From assembly GCF_036373705.1 (NCBI RefSeq), contig NC_089850.1, positions 34,892,233 through 34,956,232 on the forward strand: 64,000 nucleotides of DNA. The letters run 5' to 3'. Both the position numbers and the translations under genes were made by a program. This DNA comes from Amia ocellicauda (lineage: Eukaryota; Chordata; Actinopteri; Amiiformes; Amiidae). The notes below the pieces were generated by a model, which saw only the letters and a program-made list of their open reading frames with translations, was not told where the DNA came from and did no database searches. Of this stretch, positions 28,401 to 63,721 are shown one piece after another; within the stretch, counting starts at the first letter, position 1, and each line of letters opens with the position of its first letter.

Positions 28401-31400
28401 ACACTCACTCTATACCGCATGAGTCAATTGTGATCGGTCAATCTATCAGTTGGAATGATTAGTAGAGGGTTACACACCACCACGTTGCACCACTGGTTGA
28501 GTTTGATTGGCAGGTCCCTGTGAGACTGCACCCACTTGGCATAGGCTGGGTACATCACTGTAGGGGAGAAAGAGAAAGAGAGGGAGGGATGTGGGAAAGG
28601 CAAGGAGGGAGAGAGAAAGACACTTGGTTAGTGGTGTGGAGGTGTGTTTGAAGTACACTGTCTCAGTATCTCCACACAACTGCTGTCCAGACACAGCCTC
28701 CCCTCACCAACAAAAGGACTAGAGAACAGTCCAAACTTTTAGCACTCTCTCTCTTACCAATCTCTTTCGCCTCCTTCCCTTCCCCTCCTTCCCCCAGTCT
28801 TCCTCAAACACCCACCCCCCTTTCCCTCCCTCTGCGTCGCTCACCCGTCTCGCTGGTCGGTCTGACAGCGATGGGCTCGGCCAGCTCAGTCTTCCCAGAG
28901 CGAGTCACCCAGGCCACCTGTGCGACATAAAATAAAACACGGTCACCACTGTAACACAGCACAGTCCTGAAACACCCCAGCCTCCCACTCCCCACTCTTC
29001 CTCCCCCGGCTCCCCCTCTGACCTCGGGCGCAAAGTCGGCGATATGAGACTTCTCCTTCTCCAGGGCAGCCTGCGAGACAAACATGGGGAAGTAGCAGTT
29101 CTCCACGCCCAGCTTCTTGATCTCGCCGTCAAAGAACTCTTGGATGGTCTCCCAGATGGAGTAGGACCAGGGCCGCAGCACGTAGCAGCCGCTCACGTCG
29201 TAGTACTCGATCAGCTCCGCCTTAGTTATCACCTGCGGAGAGAGGGAGGAGAAGAGGGGCGGTGAGGGAGAGAGGGGGTTACACAATTCCATCGAACATG
29301 ATGCTTGCAGATCTGTAGAGAGGGAGAGAGAGAGAGAGAGAGAGACACAAGGCTGTACCTGTGAGTACCAGTCTGCCAGGTTCTCCTCTTTCTTTGCCTC
29401 CAGACCCAGCCTGCAGGATAGAGAGAGAGAGATTACATTTATTAACCAGGAATTTTAAAACATAGTGAGCCACCCCCTCCCCCAAAAGAAGAGACAGGCC
29501 TCTCCCTCTCTCACCGTGTCTGTTTCTTGGGCCCCTCTCCCCCTCCAGCCCCTCCACTCCCTGCATTCTTCTCCTGGTCTTGGGGTGGCTCTTTTCCTCC
29601 TCCGCCTCCTTGTTTACGCCCTCCTCCTCCTCCTCCTGCTCCTGCTCCGCTCTGCTGCTTCTCACTCTTGTTCTCCTTCTCCTTCTTCTTCTTGTCCTGT
29701 GCTGGGGGGGTGCCGGCGGGTCGGTACTCCTCTCCAGTCAGCGTGCGGTACCGAGACTTCAGGTCCAGCAGGGACTTTACTGCACCATCCACCTGGTCCT
29801 GGAGAGAGGGAGAGCGGTCAGCACTGACACACACACATACATGCAAACACACAGACAAATAAGATGTTATCACACACAGCGACTGCGTGATACTGGATGT
29901 GCAGGTCGAGTCTGTACTCTAGTGCACTGTTCTGTCTTGTCCTAAACTCTCACCTTAGAGGCTTTCTCCGCTTTCAGTCTGCGCACCAGCTCCCCCTGCT
30001 GGGACACCTCTGCAAACAGTGCCTGGACCTCAGGGGTGGAGCTGGGTTGACTGGGGGCAGGGGTTGACTTCTGTGGGGCGGGGTTAGACTGTGCAGGGGC
30101 AGGGCTGGGGGGGGCCATGCCAGGTTTGTAGTCCTGCCCCGTCAGCTGTTTGAACTGGGCCTTCAGAGCCAGCAGCTCCTTCACTGCAGCGTCCACCTGG
30201 TCCTGGAGAGAGAGAGAGAGAGAGCGTAAAACACAAATGACATTACAGCAGCTGTAGATTTTTAATTTTATTATCTATTAAAAAAGCCAATATGGGTGGG
30301 TCGGTCGGTCGGTCTCTCTCTCTCTCTCTCAATTCAATTCAATGGTGCTTTATTGGCATGACAAACAGTTTCGTAGTGTTGCCAAAGCAGTTGATATTAT
30401 ATATACATTGAAAAATAATAAAAGGTAAGAAAAAGGAGAAAAAAAATAAAATAAATAAAATAAATTGAAACGGTACAATATAATTTATAAATAAAATCTT
30501 AATAGACATGCACATTTACTTTATTTATAGTTTATAAGTTTACAGCTGGTGCTCATGTATGTTTTCACAGTGAGCCCCTCAGGCTGTGGCAGGCGGCTAC
30601 ATATTGGGCGGCCAGGGGGGCTGTGTGTCCCTCCCCCAGGAGGATAGCTATTTTTTTTTCATTTATCAATTCAGAAAATGATTTTATAATATTTATAAAT
30701 TTATTAAAGAATGTGTCCCTTAATTTGGCATATTTATTGCAGTGGAGGAGGAAGTGCATCTCTGTCTCAACCTCTCCTGTCTCGCAGTGACCACAGCGCC
30801 GCTCCTCTCTGGGCAGCCAGCTCTGCCGTGTCGGCCCGTCTCTATGGCCAGGCTGTGGTCACTGAGCCTGTACTTGGTCAGGATCCGTCTCTGCTTCGTA
30901 TCTCTGACAGTGAAGAGATACTCTGCCAGGGTGTTTTCTCTGTTTAGGGCCCGATAGCAATCCAGTTTACTTTGGGATTTGGGTTCATTGTTCCAATGTT
31001 CCAGATAGGAGGTTTTGGTTATCTTTATGATTTGGTTGACTCTAATTGGGGGCAGGTAAGCAGTGCTGACCTGAAGCTGGTCTCTGTTCGCAGTATTAGC
31101 GGGGGTCAGTGCCGTGAGCTTCAGGGCCAGCTGACTCAAGGGACTCTGACTCTGACTCTCTCTCTCTCTCACCTTGGGCGCTTTCTCTGCCTTCAGTTTA
31201 CGCACCAACTCCCCCTGCTGGGACACGCGCTCGTATGGACAGGAAGCAGGGTTGGGGGCGGGGGTGGGATTACACTGTGCATGGGCGGAACTGGGGGGGG
31301 CCATGCCAGGTTTGTAGTCCTGCCCGGTCAGCTGTTTGAACTGGGCCTTCAGAGCCAGCAGCTCCTTCACTGCAGCGTCCACCTGGTCCTGGACAGAGAG

Positions 31401-63000: not shown

Positions 63001-63721
63001 TCATTTTCTTATTTATTCCCCCCCCCCCCCACACACACACACACACTTTTTTTTCCTTGTTGTCCTTCTCATGGTTTAATTGTACGATTCTACTCTGTTA
63101 CTGTAGTATAGCTTTCTACTGTAACAGGGTTTTTCTACTCTACTGCTACTACAGTGCAGGCACCTTGTGACCATAGTCTTTCAGTTATATACCAGAGTGC
63201 GGAATTTAATATTTTTTTTAACGATGAGAGAATAATCTTCTCGGCAGATTATTACAGTGAGCAGAAACCAGCTGCTGGTGTATGTGGTCCTGTGACTGTC
63301 CCGGACTGCACCAACTCCCACCTGTTACTCTAAAACACACTCTCTCTCCCAGAGACTTCCACATAGGTTGTCTTCAACTGTTGATGAAGCATGGCTTCTG
63401 ACCAAATGTAGTTTCTCTTTCTCTGTCTCTCTCTCTTCAAAGTTCAAAGTTGTGCTTTATTGGCAGCTTACAACTTTTTATTTTGCCAAAGCAATTAAAA
63501 AGGCATTACATGCCAGGTAACAGCACAGTTACCCCTGGATAACGATGTCTGCCAATAAATAAATTATAATCCTCCTCCGCCCGCAGGAAGGCCCTCAGAG
63601 GAAGAAGCGGCGTTCAGAGGCGATGGTGGCGGCCGAGAGGGCAGACCTGTTGGCTCTGGGCACTGCGGCGGGCAGCGTGCTAATCTACAGCACCGTGAAG
63701 GGAGCCTTGCACTGCACACTA
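60057..63721 (+). CDS. wdr43: WD repeat protein 43, first two coding exons (partial)
   Basis: Exon 1 60057-60263 encodes [20 protein letters not shown] to the WD40 strand [20 protein letters not shown] and [13 protein letters not shown]. Exon 2 63587-63721 encodes [20 protein letters not shown] and [19 protein letters not shown]. Both match WDR43/UTP5, a nucleolar WD40 protein of the small-subunit processome needed for rRNA transcription and processing. Phases agree (0/0). The gene continues past the window end. The ATG at 60057 is in good context (AGCAATGG). The first intron is 3.3 kb and holds an inverted-repeat element and a LINE tail. Confidence 0.93.
60264..62130. other. wdr43 intron 1, first part
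   Basis: No second gene was recognised. CpG-bearing GC-rich stretches occur at 60300-60540 and 60950-61090. The rest is unassigned. Confidence 0.5.
62131..62658. mobile_element. Non-autonomous element with long inverted repeats
   Basis: The left arm 62131-62238 and right arm 62552-62658 are inverted copies of each other over about 107 bases. Both start AGGGGA(G/A)CTCCAC and contain CTCAGGTTATTCTA and TGAGTTTTCATGTCCAGCTC. The 313-base centre encodes nothing. The target duplication is not clear, so the superfamily is left open. Confidence 0.8.
62659..63436. other. wdr43 intron 1, second part
   Basis: It contains a short C-run plus (CA)n at about 63019-63047 and otherwise unassigned AT-rich DNA. 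A CT run at 63418-63436 ends where a LINE tail begins. Confidence 0.5.
63437..63570 (-). mobile_element. LINE 3' tail fragment (copy F) plus SINE-like tail
   Basis: On plus, TCAAAGTTCAAAGTTGTG then CTTTATTGGCA and TTTTGCCAAAGCAATT match the 3' ends of the other LINE copies. It directly follows a CT-rich run. From about 63533, CCCTGGATAACGATGTCTGC plus AATAAATAAA resembles the fish retroposon tail at 20475. Only the terminal part is present. It ends some 16 bases before the acceptor of wdr43 exon 2. Confidence 0.65.

Follow-up and report, generated by a model that had tools for sequence, protein, structure and literature searches.

Introduction

LINEs that target microsatellites are already established, and the copies described here are a well-evidenced variant among them. 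Kibi, a Tx1-clade element, targets (TC)n, and Kojima and Fujiwara reportedly described Kibi / Koshi and other target-specific LINEs of the Tx1 clade in 2004. Dong encodes a restriction-like endonuclease, and in stringent LINEs of the UnaL2 type short tandem repeats follow a 3′ hairpin that is conserved; a preference for GA arrays is not a known feature of UnaL2. One source places most target-specific LINE families in the early-branched, Tx1 and R1 groups, reports that Togen inserts at (TG)n in fish and that some HERO families also target microsatellites, and assigns a restriction-like endonuclease to both the Togen (NeSL-related) and HERO groups (PMC4640811). According to a second source, Dong inserts at (TAA)n, and RTE LINEs are described as not sequence-specific, with the SSR lying within the duplication and so being new at the site (PMC2887409).

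The copies examined here resemble RTE-clade LINEs in their endonuclease of the AP family and in having short repeats beyond the 3′ end; in our case the array seems to pre-exist, whereas the RTE repeat is new at the site. Togen, HERO and Dong are alike in having microsatellite targets and differ in their restriction-like enzyme, the endonuclease here being predicted to be of AP type. The Kibi/Koshi LINEs of the Tx1 clade come close in combining a fish host, an AP endonuclease and a microsatellite target, but the present copies are set apart by an RT about equally similar to those of L1 and R2, by a loose preference and by the seam between tail and target. LINEs of the UnaL2 type have the same succession of 3′ hairpin and tandem repeats, and differ from our copies in that the latter prefer GA.

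Results

LINE copies of the window and their 3′ ends

The window (the whole 64,000-nucleotide stretch analysed, C1:34892233-34956232 in an assembly of 988 Mb and 385 contigs) contains the LINE copies collected in Table 1, which self-comparison re-found where the original prediction had placed them. Copies A, B and C are only 66–69% identical in DNA across their common parts, and so belong to different families; an RT is recognizable in copy A (RVT_1, E 2.1e-21) and in copy C (RVT_1, 2e-13). The 5′ end of copy A was set at the edge of the next GA array, rather than by comparative mapping. From reading by eye, we take the minus-strand gene of the window to be a Glu/Pro-tRNA synthetase and an exon near 63.6 kb to be WDR43-like, a gene content that fits what is typical of fish; copy D sits ~27 bp from what, again by eye, is an apparent 5′ splice site of the tRNA-synthetase gene.

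Table 1. LINE copies, hairpins and adjoining GA arrays of the window (positions counted from the first letter of the window).
Feature	Position	Strand	Remarks
LINE copy A	42536..44703	-	5′-truncated, broken frames; end of endonuclease region, RT, 3′UTR, hairpin, (GAATT)n tail
Hairpin of copy A	42563-42604	-
(GA)n array, CT on + strand	42519..42535	-	adjoins 3′ end of copy A
(GA)n array	44704..44740	-	doubles as 5′ flank of A and 3′ flank of B
LINE copy B	44741..46500	-	5′-truncated within RT; 5′ end approximate; tblastn match to 46499
Hairpin of copy B	44750-44797	-
LINE copy C	49507..52411	-	longest window copy; endonuclease fragment and RT; 5′ end approximate
LINE copy D	30331..31146	-	3′ part only
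(GA)n array	30313..30330	-	adjoins 3′ end of copy D
GA-rich 5′ flank of D	31147..31170	-	sense strand GAGAGAGAGAGAGAGTCAGAGTCA
LINE copy E	3290..4026	+	old, degraded; 5′ end approximate
LINE copy F	63437..63570	-	short 3′ fragment; 5′ end provisional (taken from the original prediction)
Hairpin of copy F	63450-63493	-	same as in other copies; tail unit differs, (CTTTGAA)n
(GA)n array	63426..63436	-	adjoins 3′ end of copy F

Four copies had been said to start immediately beside a CT run, and their coordinates are right: on the sense strand a GA run follows the tail directly in A (17 nt), B (27 nt), D (18 nt) and F (11 nt). The AATTC-type repeats noted at the 3′ end are likewise real, as is the CT/GA DNA described on the 5′ side of copies A and D; no GA run was seen on the 5′ side of copy B. 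Copies C and E have no GA run after the tail (the longest within 50 bp being 5 and 4 nt, respectively). The 3′ flank of copy C reads AGTGAGTGAGTC, and in copy E neither a 5′ hairpin arm nor a GA array is recognizable. A random site in the window abuts a GA run of at least 11 nt with a frequency of 0.0021, giving P about 3e-10 for four of six 3′ ends beside a GA run, a value that is descriptive only, as the six sites had been picked beforehand by the original prediction. The window is itself GA-rich, with 43 GA and 27 CT runs of at least 8 nt.

The 3′ end of the copies consists of a hairpin (TGCTTTGGCA-loop-TGCCAATAAAGCA), a few bases and then short tandem repeats, mostly of GAATTT and GAATT (93 and 90 parsed units). 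Across 22 ends, 94.1% of the cells of the 10-pair stem hold standard pairs, against 26–50% in slid versions; this lead is partly built in, since the stem was taken from the fold of one among these 22 ends, all of which were picked for having both arms. Covariation is modest, with one of the ten pairs changed on both sides (GC to AU, in 3 of the 22 sequences; against shuffles, 2/500 for cells and 237/500 for the number of such pairs), and single folds of six ends are moderately better than those of shuffles (z -0.7 to -2.5).

Coding capacity and family relationships

Two relatives from the same genome, L013 and L015, have cleaner frames than the window copies. L015 offers an open RT frame of 506 aa (RVT_1, 3.7e-39), and L013 a frame of 308 aa with a predicted AP-type endonuclease (Exo_endo_phos, PF03372, 9.9e-10; also PF14529, 1.4e-7), which in sequence comparison with solved structures gives only weak matches to exodeoxyribonucleases (best E 0.37). 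With an RT of RVT_1 type, 5′ truncation (counted from the end of the hairpin, truncated copies are 27–2880 bp long) and a common 3′ end, the copies are non-LTR retrotransposons, and the Exo_endo_phos domain identifies them as AP-endonuclease LINEs. An assignment to the LINEs with a restriction-like endonuclease (R2, R4/Dong, NeSL/Togen, HERO) was considered and rejected, given the AP domain and a C-terminus of L015 (249 aa) that matches no Pfam family above the cut-off. An open frame upstream in L015 carries a Lipase_GDSL_2 signal (E 0.022) that stays under the cut-off, and is possibly ORF1. As for the CR1/L2/Rex1 (Jockey) group, some CR1 and L2 elements have an esterase ORF1 (PMC4120745), of which the signal in L015 is no more than a hint.

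Relative to L015, RT identity is 43.6% for copy B, 56.9–70.8% for copy C and 61.4–69.0% for copy A, and L011, L013 and L039 exceed 95% identity in their aligned parts, so that part of the group is young. Target and hairpin are common to families whose RTs are about 44–71% identical to that of L015, and the tail unit drifts (GAATT, GAATTT, CTTTGAA).

Among solved structures, the RT scores 113.4 bits against R2 and 109.5 bits against human L1; these are pairwise scores rather than a tree, and they give no sign of nesting in L1/Tx1. The RT motifs NYRGI and VRQGCSLSP look unlike those of L1/Tx1, and the RT motifs of these copies do not look like L2 either. The scores and the motifs that look unlike L1/Tx1 speak against the copies descending from within the Kibi-type elements, which are known to target (TC)n and belong to the Tx1 (L1) group, for an RT from the L1 group should lie nearer to L1 than to R2. 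We regard such a descent as unlikely, even though Kibi is one of the reference elements used in a tree of teleost LINEs with L1/Tx1 branches (PMC4746887) and occurs in zebrafish (PMC2684134), and an AP endonuclease would fit Tx1 (PMC4640811).

Genome-wide 3′ flanks and junction phase

The search pattern GCTTTATTGGCATGA-N(5-35)-TGCCAAAGCA describes the hairpin only and is blind to the flank; it finds 716 exact matches in the 988-Mb genome and, read backwards, none in the same genome. The first 100 matches in contig order (C1–C5, hence not a random sample) were taken, 30 as loci and 70 as small stretches, and removal of the window's own three sites (L035-L037) left 97. In the 80 bp that follow the hairpin, GA runs of at least 8, 10 and 14 nt are present at 53, 42 and 25 of the 97 sites, and in the same stretches the corresponding counts are 1, 0 and 0 for CT, 5, 5 and 4 for CA, and 2, 2 and 0 for GT. 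At 200–280 bp downstream of these sites the counts are 9, 7 and 4 for GA, 3, 3 and 2 for CT, and 8, 5 and 2 for CA. Control tiles placed 300–1400 bp downstream in the 27 longer loci contain GA runs in 23, 14 and 8 of 378 cases and CT runs in 16, 10 and 3. The flank enrichment first proposed from a handful of copies thus holds among copies across the genome (GA of at least 8 nt at 53/97 sites vs 23/378 background tiles, CT at 1/97), with Fisher P values of 1e-25 for runs of at least 8 nt and 1e-12 for runs of at least 14 nt in tests that treat tiles and copies as independent.

Merging three segmental duplicates gives GA runs of at least 8 nt in 53 of 94 copies; such copies turn up in 25 of the 38 loop classes, and by tail type the fractions are 22/37 for GAATTT, 21/33 for GAATT and 10/24 for other tails. 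The remaining 41 of the 94 have no pure GA run of at least 8 nt within 80 bp, so the preference is loose and not a strict specificity, these copies reflecting either loose targeting or decay of the array; some of them enter GACA or other purine-rich DNA. A separate pattern, made up of CTCTCTC and three units of AATTC, was matched 182 times, and 0 times when reversed, counts that carry no denominator.

The junction itself could be parsed in 89 copies (8 of the 97 were dropped, their tail not being recognizable). Directly behind the final AATT(T), 82 of the 89 continue with GA and none with AG, and the first four bases are GAGA in 44 and GACA in 13 (three duplicates included). An alternation with G on odd and A on even positions can be discerned to about +30; the tail is followed by twelve all-purine bases in 30/89 (2 in the control stretch) and by twelve all-pyrimidine bases in 0/89. 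Because GA also opens the tail unit, the seam can be placed only to within two bases, just as expected if a ...TC-3′ primer had annealed to the tail.

5′ flanks, duplications and stacked copies

Longer copies served as the reference for placing the 5′ ends of truncated ones, in comparisons that were masked and chained. Copies whose 5′ end was not resolvable were dropped (6/25 of the unbiased set and 6/19 of those selected for a GA 3′ flank), as were L053 and L057 (which coincide with L010 and L011), L024 (no hairpin found) and the window copies; where families diverge, as in L056 and in window copies A and B, several of the 5′ boundaries are soft. GA runs of at least 8 nt lie within about 60 bp upstream in 8/19 unbiased 5′-truncated copies and CT runs in 0/19, compared with 42/829 and 31/829 background tiles (P 4e-6 for GA); among the copies selected for a GA 3′ flank, such upstream runs are found in 10/13 (P 8e-11). 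At L055 and SL012 the 5′ GA doubles as the 3′ flank of an upstream copy. The other 11 of the 19 unbiased mapped 5′ ends have no GA run of at least 8 nt; four of these copies (L040, L046, L054 and L056) do have one on the 3′ side, and for the unbiased copies the two sides are weakly associated (6 and 4 vs 2 and 7, P 0.11).

A clear target-site duplication is present in L043, where 45 aligned columns are repeated at both ends with 2 mismatches and 1 gap, scoring above every re-paired control. The duplication starts at the 3′ junction with GAGAGAGAGATGGG (the 3′ flank reading GAGAGAGAGATGGGAGAGGGGCA...), and the repeat runs 5 bases beyond the mapped 5′ end, a boundary that is soft in this copy; the GA array continues upstream of the 5′ duplicate. 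A duplication that begins in the array, with further array upstream, points to a nick inside the array and duplication from there. In L054 a similarly arranged repeat of 29 columns is suggestive but falls below significance (null P 0.08), and none of the remaining 33 of the 35 copies tested has a clear duplication. A match at SL022 exceeds the controls and was not counted, since it is 35 bp away from the junction and surrounded by purine-rich DNA.

Copies stand head to tail at one GA array at three sites (window B–A, L012 and L055), and further pairs in the same orientation are found with spacings of 0.16 kb (L015), 0.34 kb (L025), 1.8 kb (L019) and 0.3 kb (C4:7912938/7913269). One opposite pair occurs at L009, its members about 2 kb apart and one end degenerate.

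The GA array appears to be target DNA rather than the tail of the element, a reading that rests on GA upstream of truncated copies, on stacking at one array and on the L043 duplication. We consider it improbable that the array is instead carried or made by the element, through RT slippage on the tail or through (GA)n in the RNA, as has been proposed for Lepidoptera RTE. The tail unit does begin with GA, a seam of the form AATTGA/GAGA could come from slippage, and microsatellites made by transposable elements are documented (PMC2887409); against this stand the same-strand GA upstream of truncated copies (8/19 and 10/13), the inclusion of GA in the L043 duplication, the three sites with two copies at one array, and the want of a significant excess of the duplications of unique sequence around element plus array that a carried-in array predicts (5/22 pairs share at least 7 nt vs 3.2 expected, P 0.14). 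That chance or composition is responsible, with LINE ends meeting common GA repeats or copies surviving better in purine-rich DNA, is scarcely credible despite the GA-richness of the window, for the local GA background is 5–9% (23/378, 9/97, 42/829), CT is found at 1/97 in the same stretches, the junction is in register, and survival bias is unable to set phase or strand.

Discussion

The original prediction took repeated contact with CT/GA repeats to suggest a preference for (TC)n/(GA)n DNA at insertion, and that preference is supported by the 3′ flanks, the 5′ flanks, the strand bias, the junction phase, stacking and one clear duplication. Very probably, a diverse group of AP-endonuclease LINEs uses target-primed reverse transcription to enter (GA)n arrays, preferentially and nearly always in one direction, apparently because the element's repeated tail matches the target.

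In the route that we envisage for this insertion, the endonuclease would nick the (TC)n strand inside an array, and the freed ...TCTC-3′ end would anneal to GA within the GAATT(T) units with which the RNA ends; judging from the seam AATT(T)/GAGA, cDNA synthesis would begin at the annealed tail. The hairpin TGCTTTGGCA...TGCCAATAAAGCA that precedes the tail would then be a likely recognition element for the RT. A second cut, tens of bases off, would yield a duplication starting in the GA array, of which one copy gives a clear example, and later copies may re-enter the same array head to tail, an arrangement seen at three sites. Since only the TC strand would prime, insertions would be one-directional relative to the GA strand, as in the counts of GA (53/97) and CT (1/97). 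Nicking of the TC strand with tail-assisted priming would account for strand, phase, both flanks and stacking, the enzymatic steps being inferred.

More tentatively, these copies may represent a further AP-endonuclease group of target-selecting LINEs outside Tx1 and R1, a proposal to which we give somewhat less than even credence; its target would be set jointly by nicking of the TC strand and by pairing of the (TC)n primer with the GA of the tail. Insertion into (GA)n by this lineage is not described among the literature matches listed, and four letter strings of the element's 3′ end are absent from the literature searched. The hairpin pattern has 0 matches in viral and prokaryotic contig collections, and the RT protein gives 14 pattern matches in viral contigs and 38 in prokaryotic genome contigs, 0 confirmed in either, and no match in plasmids; these absences are uninformative for fish.

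A diverse and partly young group of AP type that prefers (GA)n, with a phase seemingly set by pairing between tail and target, would make the link between primer annealing and target choice directly testable. Such insertion would account for LINE fragments found in one orientation beside (GA)n arrays, and is relevant to microsatellite markers and to introns, where the array can sit near a splice site, as at copy D.

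Additional LINE loci and repeats

Two LINE insertions elsewhere in the genome (L022 and L024) are ultra-short, retaining only ~30 bp ahead of the tail of short 3' repeats, and represent extreme 5' truncation; L022 adjoins GA-rich DNA. Four further copies (L088-L091) with matching flanks, at G000:C3:57072451-57315219 close to the contig end, constitute a segmental duplication with the LINE inside. GACA and CA repeats follow these copies. At L015, the reference copy, the region 5' of ORF2 (L015:1-1100) contains open frames with a sub-threshold GDSL/esterase signal, and these perhaps encode an esterase-type ORF1.

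Within the window, LINE copy D sits between two exon-sized repeats of a tRNA-synthetase gene, with an apparent splice donor ~27 bp away; the three such repeats (79-85% mutual identity) are presumably WHEP-type linker repeats. An intronic element, which we take to belong to a Tc1/mariner-like family, recurs in self-comparison as a 74-bp piece at 12573-12646 (80%), and an inverted repeat pair is perhaps another mobile element.

Repeats and mobile-element candidates in the window
Feature	Position	Detail	Basis
Tc1/mariner-like element (presumed)	33630-34525	intronic; terminal inverted repeats CACCGATCAGCCATAACATTATGA...	by eye
Inverted repeat pair	62128-62249, 62542-62660	88% identical	self-comparison
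tRNA-synthetase exon-sized repeats	29947-30222, 31166-31408, 31655-31895		self-comparison
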